Of a DNA stretch of 64,000 nucleotides, positions 10,451-32,978 are shown piece by piece. The notes below the pieces were generated by a model. The model saw nothing but the letters and a program-made list of their open reading frames with translations, searched no databases and had not been told where the DNA came from. Location: contig JARDZP010000005.1 in assembly GCA_029240795.1 (NCBI GenBank), positions 1 to 64,000 of the forward strand, written 5' to 3'. The position numbers were made by a program, and so were the translations under genes. The DNA comes from Haloplasmataceae bacterium. Its GTDB lineage: Bacteria > Bacillota_I > Bacilli_A > Haloplasmatales > Haloplasmataceae. The stretch's first letter is position 1; the number at the start of each line of letters is the position of its first letter.

Positions 10451-10477
10451 ACCTAAAGTGGAATTTATCATAAAATA
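10451..10477 (+). promoter_or_regulatory. Putative sigma-K promoter of the dipicolinate operon
   Basis: AC (10451-10452, in the context aACc) is followed after 16 bases by CATAAAATA (10469-10477). The Bacillus sigma-K consensus is mACm, about 16 bases, CATAnnnTA; every defined position matches. Transcription would start near 10485, about 20 bases before the dpaA start codon. In B. subtilis the orthologous spoVF operon is transcribed by sigma-K. No comparable sigma-A promoter is seen in this gap. Confidence 0.55.
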
Positions 10478-10505
10478 TTATGAAAGTAATATAGTAGGTG
10501 ATAAA

Positions 10506-11339
10506 ATGTCGAAGGTACTTGTAGTGAAAAATAGTGATAAAAGAATAAGATATCTAATCGAGTATCTCAAAAAAACTAATATAGTCATTGAAATATATGA
10601 TGAAATAACGTTAATAAATGAATTAAAAAGTGATCTTTATGAATGTCTAGTCTTACCCATTCGTGGGGTAAGTAAAGAATTTATCATTGATGGAACAAAT
10701 ATAAAGTTAAGTGAAGAGAGTCTAAAGCTTTTAAGTGGTAAGAAACTATTTACTGGTTTAATTAATCCTGACTTAGCTACAAGTTGTTCATTATATAATA
10801 TAAATTTAATCACATATATGACAGATGATTTCGCAATTAAAAACAATTATATAACCGTTGAAGGGATTATCGAAGCAATTGTCAATAACTCAGAAAAGGC
10901 TATATATAATGCCGATATCCTTGTAATTGGTTATGGAAGATTAGGTCAAATAACCGCCAATATCATGAAAAATCTTAAAGCGAATGTGACTGTTTCAGCT
11001 CGGAATGAAAAAGACTTAGTTCATGCGAAAATATCAGAATTTAATACAATTCACAATGATCAAGTGAGTCATTTTATTCATAAATATGATTTTATTATCA
11101 ATACCATTCCATTTAGAATACTTGATACAAGTATTCTAAAGAAAATAGAAAATACAGATATATTATTAATTGATGTGGCTAGTGAACCATTTGGACTTGA
11201 CCATGAAAGTGTAAAATCATTAAACATTAAAGTATTAAAATTACCTGGTATTCCAGGTAAAATTGCACCACTAACAGCAGGATACCTAATCGGTGAGTTT
11301 ATAAATTATATAAACTTAGGGGGTGTAAGTTGTGAGTGA
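10506..11339 (+). CDS. dpaA: Dipicolinate synthase subunit A
   Basis: With DpaB this subunit converts the product of DapA to dipicolinic acid (DPA), the calcium chelator of the spore core, in the mother cell. The 277-aa product has an N-terminal domain with a VLPIRG segment and a Rossmann NAD(P) domain opening ADILVIGYGRLGQITANIMK at about 136-155, then INTIPF and LIDVASEPFG as in SpoVFA. B. subtilis SpoVFA is about 20 residues longer. The ATG at 10506 follows AGGTG; an in-frame GTG at 10458 is rejected because it lies inside the predicted promoter. It overlaps dpaB by 8 bases, which implies translational coupling. Confidence 0.92.
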   Translation: MSKVLVVKNSDKRIRYLIEYLKKTNIVIEIYDEITLINELKSDLYECLVLPIRGVSKEFIIDGTNIKLSEESLKLLSGKKLFTGLINPDLATSCSLYNINLITYMTDDFAIKNNYITVEGIIEAIVNNSEKAIYNADILVIGYGRLGQITANIMKNLKANVTVSARNEKDLVHAKISEFNTIHNDQVSHFIHKYDFIINTIPFRILDTSILKKIENTDILLIDVASEPFGLDHESVKSLNIKVLKLPGIPGKIAPLTAGYLIGEFINYINLGGVSCE

Positions 11340-11919
11340 TAAGAAAAGCGTTGCCATCGCGATTGGTGTCTCGGGATCCTTTGGAAAAATCAATGATTTA
11401 ACTCCTGTTTTGAAAAATTTGGTTTTAAAAAATTATGAAATTAGATTGTTTGGTACAGACACAATTAAAGATAATCCTCTAGTGGTAAAAGAACTTGAGG
11501 ATGTCGTTGGACATAAATTTATTTATTCAATATCAGAAACAGAACCGTTTGGACCAAGTAAATTCTTTGATATCATGCTAATTGCGCCAATGTCAGGAAC
11601 AACACTAAGTAAATTAGCAAACGCAATTTCCGATAATGCGGTATTAATGACAGCAAAAAGTACATTAAGAAATAGTAGACCTGTAGTGTTAGCTGTATCA
11701 AGTAACGATGCCTTAGGAATGAATGGATCTAACTTAATGAAGTTATTAGTAATGAAAAATATATACTTCGTTCCATTTGGTCAAGATAATCCTGAGGAGA
11801 AGCCAAATAGCCTCGTCGCAGATTTTACCAAAATTGAAGATACAATAAAGTATGCAATAAATGGTAAACAAATCCAACCTATCATCATAGTTAAAAATAA
11901 GCGAGTTGATGAAACTTGA
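11332..11919 (+). CDS. dpaB: Dipicolinate synthase subunit B
   Basis: A 195-aa flavoprotein-family subunit of dipicolinate synthase. The N-terminus AIAIGVSGSFGKI and the central LIAPMSGTTLSKLANAISDN and VLAVSSNDALG segments match the SpoVFB/flavoprotein fold; the family length is about 200. The GTG start follows GGGGG and overlaps dpaA; its TGA stop overlaps the asd TTG start. The five genes dpaA to dapA therefore look like one tightly coupled unit that makes DPA. Confidence 0.92.
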   Translation: MSDKKSVAIAIGVSGSFGKINDLTPVLKNLVLKNYEIRLFGTDTIKDNPLVVKELEDVVGHKFIYSISETEPFGPSKFFDIMLIAPMSGTTLSKLANAISDNAVLMTAKSTLRNSRPVVLAVSSNDALGMNGSNLMKLLVMKNIYFVPFGQDNPEEKPNSLVADFTKIEDTIKYAINGKQIQPIIIVKNKRVDET

Positions 11920-14992: not shown

Positions 14993-15052
14993 TTGAGTTA
15001 TAATATGAAAAGTAGTATAAATTTTTTCTATTATTTTACAAGGAGGATTTTT

Positions 15053-16738
15053 GTGGAAAGTATTAAACTATCAAAAGTAAAAATTTTTGCTTTAGGCGGA
15101 CTAGGTGAAAATGGGAAAAACATGTATGTTATTGAAGTTAATAATAAAATATTTGTTTTGGATGCAGGTTTACGTTATCCTGGTGAAGATTTATTAGGAG
15201 TTGACGCTGTTATTCCTGATATCAAATATTTAATTGAAAATAAAGAACGAATTGTTGGTTTATTTCTATCTCATGCTCATGAAGACCACATCGGTGCAGT
15301 ACCTAATTTATTAAAGGCGCTTAATATTCCGGTTTATGGTACACGTTTAACGATGGCTCTTGTAGAGGATTCATTAAAAGAGCAAGGTGAAAATCTTGAA
15401 AATTTTACCTTAAATAAAATACGTTCGGATAATACATTAACCTTTAATGATGTTAAAGTATCCTTTTATAATACTACTCATAGTATACCAGATTCAGTTG
15501 GAATTTGCGTTCATACACCAGATGGTGTCATTGTTTATACTTCAAATTTTACATTTGATCAAAGCGTCGATAAACGCTATTTTACAAGTTATGATTTAAT
15601 ATCTGACGTTTCACGTGTGGGTGTATTAGCTCTTTTATCTGAAAGTTTATCTGCAGATAAACTAGGACACACAAGCAGTGTCAATCATTTAAAATATGAA
15701 TTAGCAGAGGCTTTTTCACAAGCACCTGGAAGAATTATCGTATCTGTATTTTCATCTGAATTACAAAGAATTCAACAAATTATTGATGTTGCTAATGAAT
15801 TTAATCGTAAAATTGCGATCATTGGTCGTAAAATGCAACGGATTGTTGATATCGCGGTAAAAATGGGTTATTTAAAATTTCCTACTTCAGGAATGCTTGT
15901 TAATCTAAAATATATTGATGAAACAAATGATAATAATTTACCTAACTTAGTCGTACTTGCTACAGGTGAAAGACAAGAACCATTTGACGCGTTAATTAGA
16001 ATGGTTCGTAAATTAGATCGTTTAATTCATGTTGAACCTAATGATACTATTCTAATCGCAACTCCACCCATTCAAGGAACAGAAATTAAGTCCGCAAGAA
16101 CCATTGATTTATTGTATCGAACAGGAGCCAATGTTATAAAAATCAATAAAATGTATTTACCACTTTCACATGCAAGTGCCGAAGATCTTAAATTAATGAT
16201 TAATTTATTAAAACCAAAATATATCATACCAGTCATTGGTGAATATCGTCATCAATACGCTCAAGCTAAAATTGCCGAACAAATGGGTTATAACTCAGAA
16301 AATATTGTACTACTAGATAACGGAATGGTTGTTGAATTTGAGCAAGGCGATTTAGTAAATATTTCAAATGATATAGAAGTTGACCAAATCTTAATTGATG
16401 GTTTAAGTGTTGGTGAAATAAGTAATGTTGTCTTAAAAGACCGTGTATTATTATCGCAAGATGGTATTTTATTAGCGATTGTTTCCATTGATATGAGAAC
16501 GCGTAAAATTATTGCTGGACCGGAAATTGTTTCTCGTGGTTTCATCTATGTTAAAGAAAATGAAGAAATTATTAATAATGTCCAAAATATTTTAAATCAA
16601 TCTTTATCTGAAGCAGAAGCGATTCCTAAAACAGAATGGAACAAAGTTAAAAATGATATACGAGATAAAATTGGTAAGTATTTATATAAAGAAACAAAGC
16701 GAAAGCCAATTATTATGCTCGTTATTAACGAATTATAA
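15053..16738 (+). CDS. rnjB: RNase J2-type protein with degenerate active site
   Basis: A 561-aa member of the RNase J metallo-beta-lactamase/beta-CASP family, which performs 5'-exo and endonucleolytic mRNA and rRNA processing as a J1-J2 complex. The first motif SHAHEDHIG (residues 73-81) and THSIPDS are kept. The usual TGDFKFD is TSNFTFD (ligand Asp becomes Asn165), the usual SGHGS is LSHAS (371-375), and the usual PxHGEYR is PVIGEYR (ligand His becomes Ile395). C-terminal stretches such as LLSQDGILLAIV and ETKRKPIIM are intact. Position after dapA matches B. subtilis rnjB, whose own active site is diverged. The GTG at 15053 follows AAGGAGG; an in-frame upstream ATG lies at the promoter. Confidence 0.88.
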   Translation: MESIKLSKVKIFALGGLGENGKNMYVIEVNNKIFVLDAGLRYPGEDLLGVDAVIPDIKYLIENKERIVGLFLSHAHEDHIGAVPNLLKALNIPVYGTRLTMALVEDSLKEQGENLENFTLNKIRSDNTLTFNDVKVSFYNTTHSIPDSVGICVHTPDGVIVYTSNFTFDQSVDKRYFTSYDLISDVSRVGVLALLSESLSADKLGHTSSVNHLKYELAEAFSQAPGRIIVSVFSSELQRIQQIIDVANEFNRKIAIIGRKMQRIVDIAVKMGYLKFPTSGMLVNLKYIDETNDNNLPNLVVLATGERQEPFDALIRMVRKLDRLIHVEPNDTILIATPPIQGTEIKSARTIDLLYRTGANVIKINKMYLPLSHASAEDLKLMINLLKPKYIIPVIGEYRHQYAQAKIAEQMGYNSENIVLLDNGMVVEFEQGDLVNISNDIEVDQILIDGLSVGEISNVVLKDRVLLSQDGILLAIVSIDMRTRKIIAGPEIVSRGFIYVKENEEIINNVQNILNQSLSEAEAIPKTEWNKVKNDIRDKIGKYLYKETKRKPIIMLVINEL

Positions 16739-16746
16739 CAATTTTT

Positions 16747-16779
16747 ATCCTAATACATTCAATGTATTAGGATTTTTTA
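16747..16779 (+). terminator. Terminator of rnjB
   Basis: An 11-bp perfect stem (atcctaataca / tgtattaggat) with a 5-base loop is followed by six Ts. Confidence 0.9.
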
Positions 16780-16857
16780 TTGAATATGATAAAATTCATC
16801 ATTATTTGATATCATAAATTTACTAAAATGTGTTTATGGATGAAAGGTGGTGGTAAA

Positions 16858-18672
16858 TTGTCAAAAGAAAAGAAAAGAAAACCAAAAGAAGATCCAACGA
16901 AAGAAGGACAGGTTTATTTTGAAGTTTGGGGAATACTTTTTATACTTATTACAATTATTTTATTATCTGAACTTGGACCTGTTGGTGAAACATTAAACAT
17001 TTTAACAAAAATGATTTTTGGTGATTGGTATTGGATTATTTTAATATTTTTATTTTATTATGGAACTTTGATGATTATCTACCATCAATTTATAACTTAT
17101 TCATCTATTAAAATTAAAGGGATGATCTTTTTAAGTGCTGGGTTATTGATTTATACACATTTTCCGATCTATAATGCCGTAATTAGTGATATTGAAAAAT
17201 ATGATTCGAACGTTATTTCTGAATCATATAGTCTTTTTATGAGTTATATTGAAAATCAAAACTATAATGGTGTTTATGGTGGTGGAATGCTTGGTGCTAC
17301 ACTTTTTTGGTTATGTATTAATTTATTAGGAGAAGTTGGCACAAAGATTTCAGCGATTATTCTTTTAATTTCAGGTATTTCATATTTATTTGAAAAAACA
17401 ATTTACGAATTTATTGATGATACTTATTATGGTTCAAAAAATGCATTTATTAAAGTTAAACACTATGTTAGCCGAATTTTTAATCAAATGGCTGAAGTGT
17501 CTAAATTAAGTAAAAATCCAAGTGTTGAAGTAAAAACAGAAAAGATAAAAGTGCAAGAAAATAATAATGTTAAATTTGAAAATATTGTTATGACAAAAGC
17601 AGAAAAATTTGTGGTAGAAAAAGGAAAGTATATAAAACCTAACAGTAAACAATTAAAATATCATGAAAATAAAGGGATTTTAGAAAGTCAAAAAGAAATA
17701 ACGATTAATAATGGTAAAATCATAAATGAATTTACTAGATCGTTATTTTTAAGCATGGAAATTAATGAAATTTATATTGGACCAACTATTTCAACCTATA
17801 TCATTGATATAGAAAACACAATTAAAAGCAAAAAAATCATAAGCAATAAAGAAGAACTGTTTTTAATGTTAGAAACAAGAAATATTCGTATATATGATAA
17901 ATATGAAAATAAACATTCTTTATATATTGAAGTACCCAATAAATTTCGCTATTTAGTTAGTTTAAGAGAAATATTAGAAGAAGAAACAGATGAAAAATTA
18001 TTCCCAATCGGAAGAAATTACCGTGGTCAAGTATTTAGTATTGATTTTAAACAAATGTCTAACATATTGGTGATTGGACATGATATTGATTCGAAAATTA
18101 TGTTATTAAAAACGATAATCAGTTCAATCTTGTATAGAAGAACGCCCGACGAGTTTAAACTTGTAATATGTGATTCAACAAAATACGAACTGAATGACTT
18201 TGAAAATAATCACCATTTATATTATGAATTAATTGATAATTTTCAAAGTATGAAACCCATGTTAATAAAACTTTATACTGAAGTTGAACAACGTTTAAAT
18301 AATATTAACTACCAAACAAAAGACCCAACGGCAATACTTTTAATTTTAAATGATTTTGTTGATTTTTATATAAATAACGATGAGTTTTTAAAATATTTAA
18401 ATTATATTTTAGTATATGGAAGTAAAGTGAATGTTTTTACAATTTATTCTACAAGCAACCTCGATGATAAAATCATAAACAATAACTTAAAAGCTCAATT
18501 TGATACAACAATTGCATTAATGATGAATAGTAAAGAAGTTTCATTTAAATACATAGAAGATGACACAAGTAAACTTTTGAAAGACGGAGATTGTTTAATT
18601 TTGTCGAGAAGTGTTAATACTAATATTAGGGTTCAAATCGCAAATTTAACAGATGAAGATATAATTAATTAA
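16858..18672 (+). CDS. Degenerate SpoIIIE/FtsK-like membrane protein
   Basis: This 604-aa protein sits where spoIIIE lies in Bacillus. About four membrane helices fill residues 15-180, as in SpoIIIE. The motor fold is recognisable (FPIGRNYRGQVFSID, NILVIG, SSILYRRTPDEFKLVICD, KLLKDGDCLIL). The Walker A position reads GHDIDSKI (407-414) instead of GxxGxGKS: the Lys remains, but the preceding Gly and following Ser are lost. The Walker B VDE becomes LND (497-499). The protein ends where the alpha-beta motor ends, without the winged-helix gamma domain that reads DNA orientation; relatives are about 180 aa longer. It probably cannot hydrolyse ATP or pump DNA. The TTG start follows AAAGGTGG. A scaffold or septal role is only a guess. 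Confidence 0.85.
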   Translation: MSKEKKRKPKEDPTKEGQVYFEVWGILFILITIILLSELGPVGETLNILTKMIFGDWYWIILIFLFYYGTLMIIYHQFITYSSIKIKGMIFLSAGLLIYTHFPIYNAVISDIEKYDSNVISESYSLFMSYIENQNYNGVYGGGMLGATLFWLCINLLGEVGTKISAIILLISGISYLFEKTIYEFIDDTYYGSKNAFIKVKHYVSRIFNQMAEVSKLSKNPSVEVKTEKIKVQENNNVKFENIVMTKAEKFVVEKGKYIKPNSKQLKYHENKGILESQKEITINNGKIINEFTRSLFLSMEINEIYIGPTISTYIIDIENTIKSKKIISNKEELFLMLETRNIRIYDKYENKHSLYIEVPNKFRYLVSLREILEEETDEKLFPIGRNYRGQVFSIDFKQMSNILVIGHDIDSKIMLLKTIISSILYRRTPDEFKLVICDSTKYELNDFENNHHLYYELIDNFQSMKPMLIKLYTEVEQRLNNINYQTKDPTAILLILNDFVDFYINNDEFLKYLNYILVYGSKVNVFTIYSTSNLDDKIINNNLKAQFDTTIALMMNSKEVSFKYIEDDTSKLLKDGDCLILSRSVNTNIRVQIANLTDEDIIN

Positions 18673-18753: not shown

Positions 18754-19920
18754 ATGAGAAAATTATTCGCTTTATTTTCAGTATTTGTTCTATTCACTGT
18801 TTTAACAGCGTGTGGACCAAAGCTTGATTACGATAAAGGAACTTTTACAGGTCCTTATTGTGATGATCTAGATGTGTTTGCTGATGCTAAGAAAGCAGCA
18901 ATTGGTATGGTAACTGACTCTGGAACTATTGATGATAAATCATTTAATCAAGGTACATGGGAAGGTATTCAATGTTACAATGCTAAACATACTTCAGCAG
19001 TAAAATATTTACAACCAAGTGGGGAAACTAAAGAAGATTACATTAATGCAATCGATAATTTAGTTGATGCTGGTTATAAAATGATTGTTGCTCCAGGATT
19101 CAAATTTGAAAATGCAATTTTTGAAGCACAAACTACACATGAAGATATAAAATTTATTATAATTGACGGTGCACCACACAGTGGAAATTATGTTCCAGAC
19201 ATCAAATCTAACACTGTATCAGTAATGTTTGCTGAAGAACAAGTTGGATTTTTAGCAGGTGTTGCTGCAGCGTTACAAACTGAAACTGGAAAAGTAGCAT
19301 TTGTTGGGGGAATGGAAATTCCTGCAGTGCAAAAATTCGGTTGGGGCTATGTAGCAGGTGTTGCTTACGCTAATGACACATATGATTTAAATGTAGTAGT
19401 AACTGACTATTTATATCAAGGTACATTTACAGAAGTAACAGCTGGTCAAACAATAGCTGCAGGAATGTATGATGAAGGTATTGATATTATATTCGCTGCT
19501 GCTGGTGGTGTTGGCGTTGGAGTAATTAATGAAGCTAAAACACGTACTGAAGCGGGTGAAGAAGTATGGGTAATTGGCGTTGACTCAGATCAATACGATG
19601 CTGGAAAATATGGAACAGCAGGAAAATCAGTTATTTTAACTTCTGCTATGAAACGTGTTGACTTAGCTGCATATAATTATTCAGGAGCACTTGCGACTAA
19701 TTCATTTGTAGGTGGTAAACAAGTCACTTATGATATTAAAAATGATGGGGTAGGATTACCAGCAAATAACCCTAATTTAGCTGCTGATACACTTACTAAA
19801 GTTGATACAGTTGTTGCTGCTATGAAAGCTGATACAATTGTAGCTCCAAATACAAAAGAAAAATTAACTACTTATTTAACTAGTAAAGGATATGTAACTC
19901 CTGGTACAATTACTTATTAA
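18754..19920 (+). CDS. BMP-family nucleoside-binding lipoprotein
   Basis: The substrate-binding component of an ABC importer, most likely for purine nucleosides. The signal peptide ends in VLTAC with the lipid-anchored Cys at residue 20. The mature protein shows the BMP/Med pattern: IGMVTDSGTIDDKSFNQGTW, FIIIDG, SVMFAEEQVGFLAGV, GKVAFVGGMEIPAVQKFGWGY, IIFAAAGGVGVGVI and VIGVDSDQY. The 388-aa length is normal for the family. A terminator follows, then a separate promoter for the ABC ATPase and permeases; this is common where binding protein is made in excess. The PnrA/NupN group is the closest named match. Confidence 0.92.
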   Translation: MRKLFALFSVFVLFTVLTACGPKLDYDKGTFTGPYCDDLDVFADAKKAAIGMVTDSGTIDDKSFNQGTWEGIQCYNAKHTSAVKYLQPSGETKEDYINAIDNLVDAGYKMIVAPGFKFENAIFEAQTTHEDIKFIIIDGAPHSGNYVPDIKSNTVSVMFAEEQVGFLAGVAAALQTETGKVAFVGGMEIPAVQKFGWGYVAGVAYANDTYDLNVVVTDYLYQGTFTEVTAGQTIAAGMYDEGIDIIFAAAGGVGVGVINEAKTRTEAGEEVWVIGVDSDQYDAGKYGTAGKSVILTSAMKRVDLAAYNYSGALATNSFVGGKQVTYDIKNDGVGLPANNPNLAADTLTKVDTVVAAMKADTIVAPNTKEKLTTYLTSKGYVTPGTITY

Positions 19921-29748: not shown

Positions 29749-31617
29749 ATGAGAAAAATAATATTTGTATTTGTAGTCATGTTATGTTTATTTTATTTTA
29801 AACCAATAATCAGTTCAGCTAATGAATGTGTTCCTGATCCCAAACCCCTTATTAACGGTGCTCATGATATCAATTTTGAAATAGATGATCCCAAACCCAC
29901 TTGGTTAGAAGGAATCAGTGCAATAGATAGTTGTGGTAATGAAGTAGTAGTTAAAGTAGACGATGAGGATGTTAATATATTTGCAGTAGGAGTTTATTAT
30001 ATACATTATACAGCAAAAGGAAATACCATTACATTTAATGTACGTGTTTTTGAAGATATTACTAAACCAGTTATTACAGGGGCTGAAAGTTTCTCAATAG
30101 AAGTTAATTCGACTATTGTTGATTATCTAAGAAATGTTGAAGTGACAGATAATAAGGATACTGAAATAGAAGGTAAACTAGAGATTGATTCTACAAAAGT
30201 AGATCTTACAAAAGTAGGTAAATATCAGTTAGAATATAAAGCTATAGACTATAAAGGTAATACTGAAATAGTTGCAGTGGATGTATTAGTAGTAGATACT
30301 ACATTTCCTATTTTAGAAAATGTAAATCATTTAGAGTTAGAAGTAAATCAAAATATGAATGGTTATGACTGGTGGTCCGGAATAAATACAGGTGATAATA
30401 GTAATTTATTTCGAAATGTAATCGATTTTCGTAATTTTGATATCAAAAATATTGGTATTTATAGTTTGACTTATAAAGTTATTGATGATGTAGGGAATAC
30501 TACTGAAAAAACAATTCAAGTCAGTGTTGTTGATAAAATAAAGCCAGAACTGGTTTTAAATCAAGAAATAAAAATTAAAATGGGTGATGTACAGATTGAT
30601 TGGTTAAACGGAATTGATATTCTCGATAATTATGAAAATATTCCTCTATCAAAAATATTTTGTGATACATCTAGGGTTAATTTAGAAGTACCAGGTACAT
30701 ATAAAATTTTCTATTTTGTTTCTGATTCTAGTGGTAATTATTATACACTAGACAAAGATGTGATTGTTTATGATGATGATTTTCCAGCATTCCATAACGT
30801 ACTTTCCTTTAATATTTTTGTGAATACAGAACAAGTTGATTATAAACACAACATTACAGTGTCTGATCCAACAGATGGTGATATTACAGATCAAATGATT
30901 ATTTACGATAAAAATGTTAATTTATCTAAAGTAGGAATGTATAAATTATTCTATATGGTTACTGATAGAAGTGGAAACAGAACGATAGAAACGGTAAATG
31001 TGAATGTATACGATAATGAAGGTCCAGTGATTAACGGAACAAAAGATTTACTCATTGAAGTTCATACGACTGATTTTGATTTTTTAAATGGTGTATCTGC
31101 AAATGATAACATTGATGGAGATCTTGATGTGGAAGTTGATTTTTCAAGTGTTAAATTTAATGAACTTGGGAATTATTCTATTAAGTATACAGCCATAGAT
31201 AGTAACAACAATAAAACTGAAGTAATCGTCAATGTATCAGTTGTTGATACAACTAAGCCAGTACTAGAAGGATATCAAGATATAACTGTTTTAGTTGGAA
31301 CTAACATCAATCTATTAGAACATATTAAAGCAATCGATAACTTTGACGGCGATATAACCAGTAACATTGAATTAATTGGTACTTATGACATCAATAAAGC
31401 GGGAGAATACCAAGTAAAGATTGAAATTGAAGATTATAGTGGCAATTATGCAAGTGCTTATTTTAAATTAATTGTAAAAGAAGAACATATTATTAAGGGG
31501 GTAGACCAAAATACAATGTATTATATCATAGCAGGTGTAGGGGCAACGATCTTAGTCTTTGGTTTTATTAGTGTCATTTCAAGAAAGAGAAGTAGAATTA
31601 TTAGATCTCGGAGATAA
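29749..31617 (+). CDS. Membrane-anchored protein with seven Ig-like repeats
   Basis: A 622-aa surface protein. A signal peptide occupies about residues 1-24. Seven repeats of about 78-85 residues follow, each with a pattern like DxxKPxIxG...DNxDGDIT...GxYxxxYxAxDxSGNxxxxxVxV, matching bacterial Ig-like DUF5011/HYR-type domains. Repeat 1 has two Cys that could form a disulfide. A single C-terminal membrane helix (about 595-615) and the basic tail SRKRSRIIRSRR anchor it; no LPxTG is seen. A TATAAT at 29713-29718 may be its -10. A role in adhesion or cell-surface structure is inferred from the domain type only. Confidence 0.85.
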   Translation: MRKIIFVFVVMLCLFYFKPIISSANECVPDPKPLINGAHDINFEIDDPKPTWLEGISAIDSCGNEVVVKVDDEDVNIFAVGVYYIHYTAKGNTITFNVRVFEDITKPVITGAESFSIEVNSTIVDYLRNVEVTDNKDTEIEGKLEIDSTKVDLTKVGKYQLEYKAIDYKGNTEIVAVDVLVVDTTFPILENVNHLELEVNQNMNGYDWWSGINTGDNSNLFRNVIDFRNFDIKNIGIYSLTYKVIDDVGNTTEKTIQVSVVDKIKPELVLNQEIKIKMGDVQIDWLNGIDILDNYENIPLSKIFCDTSRVNLEVPGTYKIFYFVSDSSGNYYTLDKDVIVYDDDFPAFHNVLSFNIFVNTEQVDYKHNITVSDPTDGDITDQMIIYDKNVNLSKVGMYKLFYMVTDRSGNRTIETVNVNVYDNEGPVINGTKDLLIEVHTTDFDFLNGVSANDNIDGDLDVEVDFSSVKFNELGNYSIKYTAIDSNNNKTEVIVNVSVVDTTKPVLEGYQDITVLVGTNINLLEHIKAIDNFDGDITSNIELIGTYDINKAGEYQVKIEIEDYSGNYASAYFKLIVKEEHIIKGVDQNTMYYIIAGVGATILVFGFISVISRKRSRIIRSRR

Positions 31618-31671: not shown

Positions 31672-32910
31672 CTATTTAAATTTTTTACTTTTTAATAATT
31701 TATAATTATTAATTAAGTTAATTTCATATGTGTTTTGATACTCTTTAGGTTGATAATACTCTGTGTTTTTTAGTATATCTGGTAAATAGTGATACATATA
31801 TTTGTTAGGGTCATCTGGGCTGTACTTAATAGGTGGATTAATTGGACTTGATTTGATAAACTCTGGTATCTCACCAACTTTACCATTTTCTATATCATCT
31901 ATTGCTTTATCTAGAGCGATATGACCTGATCTTGATTTAGGTGATAGGGCAAGTTCAATAACAGCATTTCCTAAAGGAATACGTGCTTCAGGAAACCCAA
32001 CTTGTCTTGCAGCATCAATTGCGGACATAGTGTGAACACAAGCGTTAGGATTCGCTAATCCGATATCTTCAAAAGCAATGATTGAAAGACGCCTACAAAT
32101 GCTATCCATATCACCTGCAAGAATAAGTCTTGCCAAATAATGAAGTGCGGCATTCACGTCGCTACCTCTAATTGATTTCTGAAAAGCACTTAATGTATCA
32201 TAATATCCATCTGAATCTTTATCAATTGTGAATGAACCTTTAATTAATAAATTGTCAAGATTACTTATAGTGATCAAGTTATCATTTGCAGATAAAATTG
32301 ATAATTCTAATAAATTTAAAGCGTTTCGTAAATCACCGTTTGCTATCGTTGAGATTTTCTCTATGACTTCATCATCAATCTGATAGTAATTTGCACTATT
32401 GTTATTTATTTCAGTATCACTCACTTTGATTAATTCCAATCGTTCTTTAATATCTTCTTTTTCTAAAGGTTTTAATTCTAATATATGACACCTAGAACGA
32501 ATAGCTGGATTAACACTATAATATGGATTATTAGTAGTTAATCCAATGATATAACAAGTACCATTTTCAAGATAGGGTAGTAATACATCCTGATTATCTT
32601 TTTTTAATCGATGTATTTCATCAATTATGATAATATAATCAGTCGATAATTTTGCTGTATCAATGATTCCAGTTAGTCTTGCCTTATTATCAGTTGATGC
32701 ATTAAATTCCGCAAAAGGGATGTTTAAGGAATTCGCAATGATTTTAGCAATTGTCGTTTTACCACATCCAGGTGGACCAAATAAGATAAACGAAAAAATC
32801 TGTTTATGATCAATTAAATTATTTATTAGTTTACCAACACCGATGATATGTTTTTGTCCTACTACATCACTTATTGTTTTTGGTCTTAATCTATATGCTA
32901 ATGGCTCCAT
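31672..32910 (-). CDS. rarA: Replication-associated AAA+ ATPase RarA/MgsA
   Basis: A 412-aa clamp-loader-like ATPase acting at stalled replication forks. PLAYRLRPKTISDVVGQKHI, Walker A FGPPGCGKTT, Walker B IIIDEIHR, the sensor segment GLTTNNPYYSVNPAIRSRC and the C-terminal RGSDVNAALHYLARLI and SIIAFEDIGLANP are typical. The ATG at 32910 follows GAGGTGG; an in-frame ATG 51 bases upstream is rejected because a terminator-like hairpin lies between it and the ribosome-binding site. It is transcribed away from mnmA. Confidence 0.93.
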   Translation of the reverse strand: MEPLAYRLRPKTISDVVGQKHIIGVGKLINNLIDHKQIFSFILFGPPGCGKTTIAKIIANSLNIPFAEFNASTDNKARLTGIIDTAKLSTDYIIIIDEIHRLKKDNQDVLLPYLENGTCYIIGLTTNNPYYSVNPAIRSRCHILELKPLEKEDIKERLELIKVSDTEINNNSANYYQIDDEVIEKISTIANGDLRNALNLLELSILSANDNLITISNLDNLLIKGSFTIDKDSDGYYDTLSAFQKSIRGSDVNAALHYLARLILAGDMDSICRRLSIIAFEDIGLANPNACVHTMSAIDAARQVGFPEARIPLGNAVIELALSPKSRSGHIALDKAIDDIENGKVGEIPEFIKSSPINPPIKYSPDDPNKYMYHYLPDILKNTEYYQPKEYQNTYEINLINNYKLLKSKKFK

Positions 32911-32928
32911 TAAATCCACCTCTATTAT

Positions 32929-32953
32929 AAAAAACTGTTGATTTTCAACAGTT
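32929..32953 (-). promoter_or_regulatory. Terminator-like hairpin in the rarA leader
   Basis: Minus strand: a 9-bp perfect stem (aactgttga / tcaacagtt) with an AAA loop runs straight into six Ts. It sits between the predicted transcription start (about 32972) and the rarA ribosome-binding site, so it looks like an attenuator. Confidence 0.5.
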
Positions 32954-32978
32954 AACATCAATTCTAATTTTTTATTTT

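Follow-up and report, generated by a model that had tools for sequence, protein, structure and literature searches.

In the 64,000-nucleotide stretch of Haloplasmataceae DNA analysed here (the window), the spoIIIE position is occupied by a gene whose product, pseudo-SpoIIIE, has, by its sequence, kept the membrane domain of SpoIIIE and lost the DNA motor; in Bacillus, SpoIIIE drives DNA into the forming spore. Our preferred reading, to which we give a probability of about 0.5, is that pseudo-SpoIIIE is a SpoIIIE orthologue turned non-pumping membrane protein and kept for the sporulation septum, with a soluble translocase of the SftA type as the remaining motor. The initial annotation had described a motorless SpoIIIE at this place, and the present analysis extends it with the occurrence of the protein in five families, its tracking of the spore-coat gene spoIVA, the soluble SftA-type partner and a shift of conservation away from the motor and towards the membrane domain.

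The gene and its surroundings comprise the following features, all on the forward strand.

10458 to 11919, + strand: genes for both dipicolinate synthase subunits, A (spoVFA) and B (spoVFB), which form the sporulation part of this locus (Pfam DpaA_N and Flavoprotein)
14993 to 16738, + strand: RNase J, conserved upstream neighbour of pseudo-SpoIIIE (locus comparison)
16747 to 16778, + strand: terminator-like hairpin and T run, 3′ of the RNase J gene (read directly from the sequence)
16795 to 16801, + strand: TTCATCA, one mismatch against the Spo0A box TTCGNCA (suggestive only)
16858 to 18672, + strand: pseudo-SpoIIIE, the motorless SpoIIIE (TTG start, 604 aa; orthologues in 8/8 Haloplasmataceae)
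18754 to 19920, + strand: BMP/PnrA-type lipoprotein, downstream neighbour conserved in Haloplasmataceae (f1) and one f3 genome (locus comparison)

The gene order in the window is spoVFA-spoVFB-asd-dapG-dapA-RNase J-pseudo-SpoIIIE, followed by a BMP/ABC transporter operon, and the order at the Bacillus subtilis spoIIIE locus is likewise spoVFA-spoVFB-asd-dapG-dapA-RNase J. Judged by its neighbours, the position is the spoIIIE locus. The Haloplasmataceae and genome G020 of family f3 have the same neighbours, and the position of the gene is conserved; RNase J also precedes the gene in several genomes of f5 and f21, and in the f21 genomes examined a dipicolinate-synthase-A-like gene adjoins RNase J and pseudo-SpoIIIE. 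In the loci of f5, f16 and f21 that were read, and in a single f3 genome, a convergent gene for an MgsA/RarA-type AAA ATPase stands beside pseudo-SpoIIIE; the window has such a gene at 31672-32961, 13 kb downstream, as well as a gene at 29749-31617 for a secreted protein that carries six bacterial surface Ig-like domains.

The frame, described at the outset as long and uninterrupted, is indeed open from TTG 16858 to the stop at 18672, with the ribosome-binding site GGTGGTGG directly 5′ of the TTG. The mechanically called open reading frame begins further 5′, at ATG 16828; the starts of the relatives align with TTG 16858, which is the likely start and the one used in the initial annotation. The gene probably has its own promoter, the terminator-like hairpin and T run separating it from the RNase J gene. 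An exact TTCGNCA, whose background frequency is 0.25 per kb, is found at the aligned place in five of the eight Haloplasmataceae (upstream of L005, L006, L008, L009 and L012), 57-65 bases 5′ of the start and with TAAAAT or TAGAAT downstream of it. Because the box is missing upstream of most pseudo-SpoIIIE genes of f5, f16 and f21, it was demoted from a regulatory signature to a hint.

Within the protein, the domains and motor remnants are arranged as follows.

16897 to 17388, + strand: four-helix membrane domain and extracellular loop with FGDWYW, SHFP and GGG motifs (predicted structure, helices 14-177; invariant columns)
17389 to 17637, + strand: variable linker, partly disordered (pLDDT <50 at residues 218-255)
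17638 to 17940, + strand: FtsK alpha domain (Pfam PF17854, 43.3 bits)
17995 to 18555, + strand: degenerate FtsK/SpoIIIE beta (motor) domain (Pfam PF01580, 46 bits; Foldseek against FtsK 6t8o, TM-score 0.77)
18076 to 18099, + strand: Walker A remnant GHDIDSKI, which retains the Lys but neither the Ser/Thr nor the last Gly (alignments)
18337 to 18354, + strand: Walker B remnant LLILND, Asp replaced by Asn and the catalytic Glu by Asp (alignments)

That the four-helix membrane part and the motor fold were kept, as first proposed, is upheld by several lines of evidence. Four N-terminal membrane helices are indicated by hydropathy, by the helices of the model and by alignment with intact SpoIIIE; the FtsK_4TM Pfam match of the window protein is weak (16 bits, below the cut-off), and that of L070 lies above it. 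The alpha/beta motor fold is recognized by Pfam, by a PDB profile match (E 5e-28) and by Foldseek, and the model of an f5 pseudo-SpoIIIE, with about 15% identity to FtsK, yet matches the FtsK motor with a TM-score of 0.75. The absence of the gamma winged-helix domain was confirmed: FtsK_gamma (Pfam) gave no match in the window protein, and all aligned motorless forms end after the beta domain, without gamma. The ATQRP (QRP) motif is likewise missing in the alignments, and Walker A is present in 0 of 18 motorless forms versus 38 of 38 other FtsK/SpoIIIE proteins. The claim that the Walker motifs were gone stands in so far as neither appears to work, with the refinement that the Walker A Lys is kept and invariant in Haloplasmataceae (pattern xxD[IL][ND]SK[ILV]). 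The P-loop remnants differ between families, f1 keeping the Lys and losing SG, f16 and f21 keeping SG and losing the Lys (GxxxSG[IV][KT]; L005, L070, L133), and the Lys is lost in the sampled proteins of the families other than Haloplasmataceae; the P-loops of Haloplasmataceae and of f16/f21 may have decayed by different routes. On alignment, neither Walker motif of pseudo-SpoIIIE is functional, which amounts to loss of the motor.

Named relatives are Haloplasma contractile, Inordinaticella fortuita and uncultured Haloplasmataceae, which places the window in that family. Pseudo-SpoIIIE was found in all eight Haloplasmataceae genomes, which make up the whole sampled order; the proteins share 45-64% identity, the frames contain no stops and the same motor losses recur in each (the G003 gene lies in two parts on separate contigs). 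A profile of these proteins matched shorter 4TM frames in four further families of the same class, f3, f5, f16 and f21, suggested, partly from a published survey (PMC10868615), to be Izemoplasmatales, Anaeroplasmataceae or ML615J-28-like groups. None of the 4TM frames examined in these families has a Walker A motif, all stop after the beta domain, and they are more degenerate than the Haloplasmataceae versions. The homologues thus share the losses, as the initial annotation had proposed to check, and an oddity confined to Haloplasmataceae was rejected.

The whole-gene dN/dS of pseudo-SpoIIIE between close pairs is 0.03-0.24, similar to that of the active FtsK of the same genomes, and that of the membrane half and of the motor half is 0.01-0.09 (six pairs), all rough values because most pairs approach saturation at synonymous sites. 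Maintenance as a protein, assumed at first from the open frame, is borne out by these ratios and by the orthologues in 8/8 genomes; within the Haloplasmataceae, no relative has an intact SpoIIIE here, no frame is decayed and no neutral dN/dS was seen. A pseudogene or an assembly artefact was therefore rejected on the stop-free frames in all eight genomes and the low dN/dS. Every pair of intact 4TM SpoIIIE proteins shows stronger conservation of the beta domain than of the membrane domain; among motorless forms, the membrane domain comes first in 91% of the pairs within a family and in 98% of those between families, against 0% of intact pairs. As read from these alignments, the membrane domain has overtaken the motor as the more constrained part, opposite to what intact SpoIIIE shows, and the loss of the motor is old and selected. 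The motor half is itself under purifying selection, and therefore the membrane part would not be the whole function of the protein.

The motorless forms make up one group in both the motor tree, which has very long branches, and the 4TM tree, so that several independent inactivations of SpoIIIE need not be assumed, a possibility that the long branches and the differing P-loop remnants leave. The membrane-domain tree places them (support 90/92 for the motorless group) beside the 4TM SpoIIIE of f10 and f11. All soluble FtsKs fall in one SftA clade, including the soluble FtsK of f11, whose genomes carry it together with an intact 4TM SpoIIIE; f10 also keeps an intact 4TM SpoIIIE.

An intact FtsK elsewhere in the genome, which the initial annotation had suggested seeking, exists (C97, L001) and matches the Pfam motor, alpha and gamma domains with 222, 108 and 87 bits. 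Each Haloplasmataceae genome, except the fragmented G003, has one full FtsK; its frame measures 769-926 aa, contains GSTGSGKS and a Walker B of the VxxIDEL type, and lacks a membrane helix at the N-terminus. The second, active FtsK/SpoIIIE postulated at first is accordingly present as an active FtsK, but of the soluble SftA type and at a murC-ccpA locus, not as a SpoIIIE. The active FtsKs of f3, f5, f16 and f21 are also soluble and belong to the same clade as the f11 soluble FtsK; six representative soluble FtsKs have alpha, beta and gamma domains. In the genomes read, the full FtsK of Haloplasmataceae adjoins a thioredoxin-like gene, and in 4/5 its surroundings also hold murC, tyrS, an aroA/ccpA-like pair and a gene resembling ytxG (gene names taken from the sequences); such are the surroundings of sftA in B. 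subtilis. No intact 4TM SpoIIIE was found in the pseudo-SpoIIIE-bearing genomes checked, and a second intact SpoIIIE elsewhere was rejected, the intact FtsK of these genomes being soluble and SftA-like. Where checked, the only intact chromosomal FtsK beside pseudo-SpoIIIE is, by its sequence, of the soluble SftA type; no active FtsK was found in G182 and only a partial one in G397, both of them metagenome-assembled genomes. Many soluble SftA-type FtsKs of f1, f3, f5, f11, f16 and f21 (e.g. L016, L105, L109, L114 and L128) carry a short motif F[VL]SPxxG close to the N-terminus, a candidate divisome-binding motif that is missing from the 4TM SpoIIIEs checked. Three genomes (G005, G006 and G007) have extra small FtsK-like proteins of 329-439 aa with intact Walker A (L020, L021 and L022), which probably derive from mobile elements.

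The presence of pseudo-SpoIIIE is associated with that of spoIVA. Among 59 genomes of f3, f5, f16 and f21, 31 have both genes, 3 pseudo-SpoIIIE only, 1 spoIVA only and 24 neither (Fisher p 3e-12), G177 and the contig-split G323 being counted as carriers after their sequences were read. The exceptions are G205, G323 and G398, the last two fragmented, which have pseudo-SpoIIIE without spoIVA, and G093, which has spoIVA without pseudo-SpoIIIE. On the soluble-FtsK (SftA) tree, eight phylogenetically independent pairs differ in pseudo-SpoIIIE, and spoIVA changes the same way in 7.8 of them on average and the opposite way in 0 (sign test p 0.008). Across these genome sequences, pseudo-SpoIIIE thus tracks spoIVA, and its carriers would sporulate, to judge by marker genes. 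SpoIVA and Spo0A were each found in 8/8 Haloplasmataceae; of the named control genomes, only one was above the cut-off in each search, B. subtilis being listed for Spo0A and topping the SpoIVA list. Haloplasma and the Haloplasmataceae have been described as non-sporing. Because of their dipicolinate synthase, SpoIVA and Spo0A genes, it seems likely that they sporulate or do something derived from sporulation.

The proposed role follows the behaviour of SpoIIIE(ATP-) in B. subtilis, which still gathers into normally sized foci and allows membrane fission at the septum without DNA translocation; fission requires the membrane domain of SpoIIIE together with its extracellular loop, and taking SpoIIIE out of either cell abolishes it (PMC4423119). 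Whether the B. subtilis membrane domains serve only to place the pump, or pair up into a channel that separates the membranes, is debated (PMC4423119). The soluble SftA is brought in by FtsZ and carries DNA clear of the septum as it closes (PMC5357621). By analogy, the four helices and extracellular loop of pseudo-SpoIIIE would probably come together in both membranes of the septum, and the assembly would seal or separate the membranes of mother cell and forespore where they surround the trapped chromosome; the dead motor ring would stay as an assembly or docking platform, and the soluble SftA-type translocase would move DNA before or during septum closure. Septal localization, a role in membrane fission and cooperation with SftA are what we infer for the protein. 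Between the scaffold and the regulator that were first envisaged, the data lean towards the membrane or septum role.

An unlikely alternative is a split pump, in which pseudo-SpoIIIE would be a membrane ring or channel docking the soluble SftA motor in sporulation, the pair replacing single-chain SpoIIIE in at least five families. The solubility of every active chromosomal FtsK found in pseudo-SpoIIIE-bearing genomes, with no intact 4TM SpoIIIE among them, and the kept and constrained hexamer-forming alpha/beta fold are consistent with it; SpoIIIE and SftA do not colocalize in B. subtilis, however (PMC5357621). The dependence would also be one-sided, because genomes that lost pseudo-SpoIIIE still have SftA, with few exceptions. 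Regulation is a common role of pseudoenzymes, and the motor half is still under purifying selection, so that pseudo-SpoIIIE might bind DNA or SftA subunits and restrain or time the active motor at the sporulation septum; we consider this distinctly improbable, since conservation is strongest in the membrane domain and the catalytic and DNA-reading parts are lost. Continued ATPase activity, alone or in mixed rings, by way of unusual residues is very doubtful: D409, S412 and K413, the last being the Walker A Lys, are invariant in Haloplasmataceae, but the Walker A Ser/Thr, the Walker B Asp, the catalytic Glu and QRP are all lost, and the Lys is gone in the other sampled families. A decaying relict with little function, for which the family-to-family variation of the P-loop remnants speaks as drift of an unused site would, is refuted as stated by the dN/dS, the complete frames in five families and the loss of the gene along with spoIVA.

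Set beside B. subtilis SpoIIIE, pseudo-SpoIIIE is alike in locus order, four membrane helices and alpha/beta fold, with the membrane-domain tree tentatively joining it to the intact 4TM SpoIIIE of f10 and f11, and unlike in having no Walker A/B function, QRP or gamma, in its better-conserved membrane domain and in being kept almost only with spoIVA. It resembles the engineered SpoIIIE(ATP-) in combining the membrane part and fold without ATPase, and differs in being natural, old and without gamma, and in occurring in families with a soluble chromosomal FtsK motor; the best reading is that it may be the natural counterpart of that mutant. Bacillus SftA (YtpS) is like the active partner, without membrane helices, with alpha, beta and gamma domains and adjoining murC and ccpA-like genes, and unlike pseudo-SpoIIIE, which is membrane-bound by four helices and motorless, with no Walker motifs. 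The degenerate ATPase domains of EssC/EccC likewise have the FtsK-HerA fold without full catalysis (fold matches by Foldseek), but there they are additional domains within a single secretion ATPase, whereas pseudo-SpoIIIE appears wholly inactive and stands at the spoIIIE locus. No earlier report of an inactive SpoIIIE was found in the literature searched, most subscription papers lying outside its scope, so an earlier mention is possible. A survey of 2650 Bacilli genomes reports sporulation loss in these orders, and SpoIIIE and FtsK are absent from its main text (PMC10868615).

Annotations as SpoIIIE in these genomes are misleading, a family match not being equivalent to a DNA pump, and the finding raises how bacteria with pseudo-SpoIIIE bring the chromosome into the forespore. 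On the simplest reading, SpoIIIE would have been reduced to a septal membrane role in these families, with SftA as the motor. Pseudo-SpoIIIE amounts to a separation-of-function experiment that nature has carried out with a textbook motor: the motor was removed and the membrane part kept almost only where spoIVA remains, which argues that the membrane part of SpoIIIE is selected for a separate role in spore formation.
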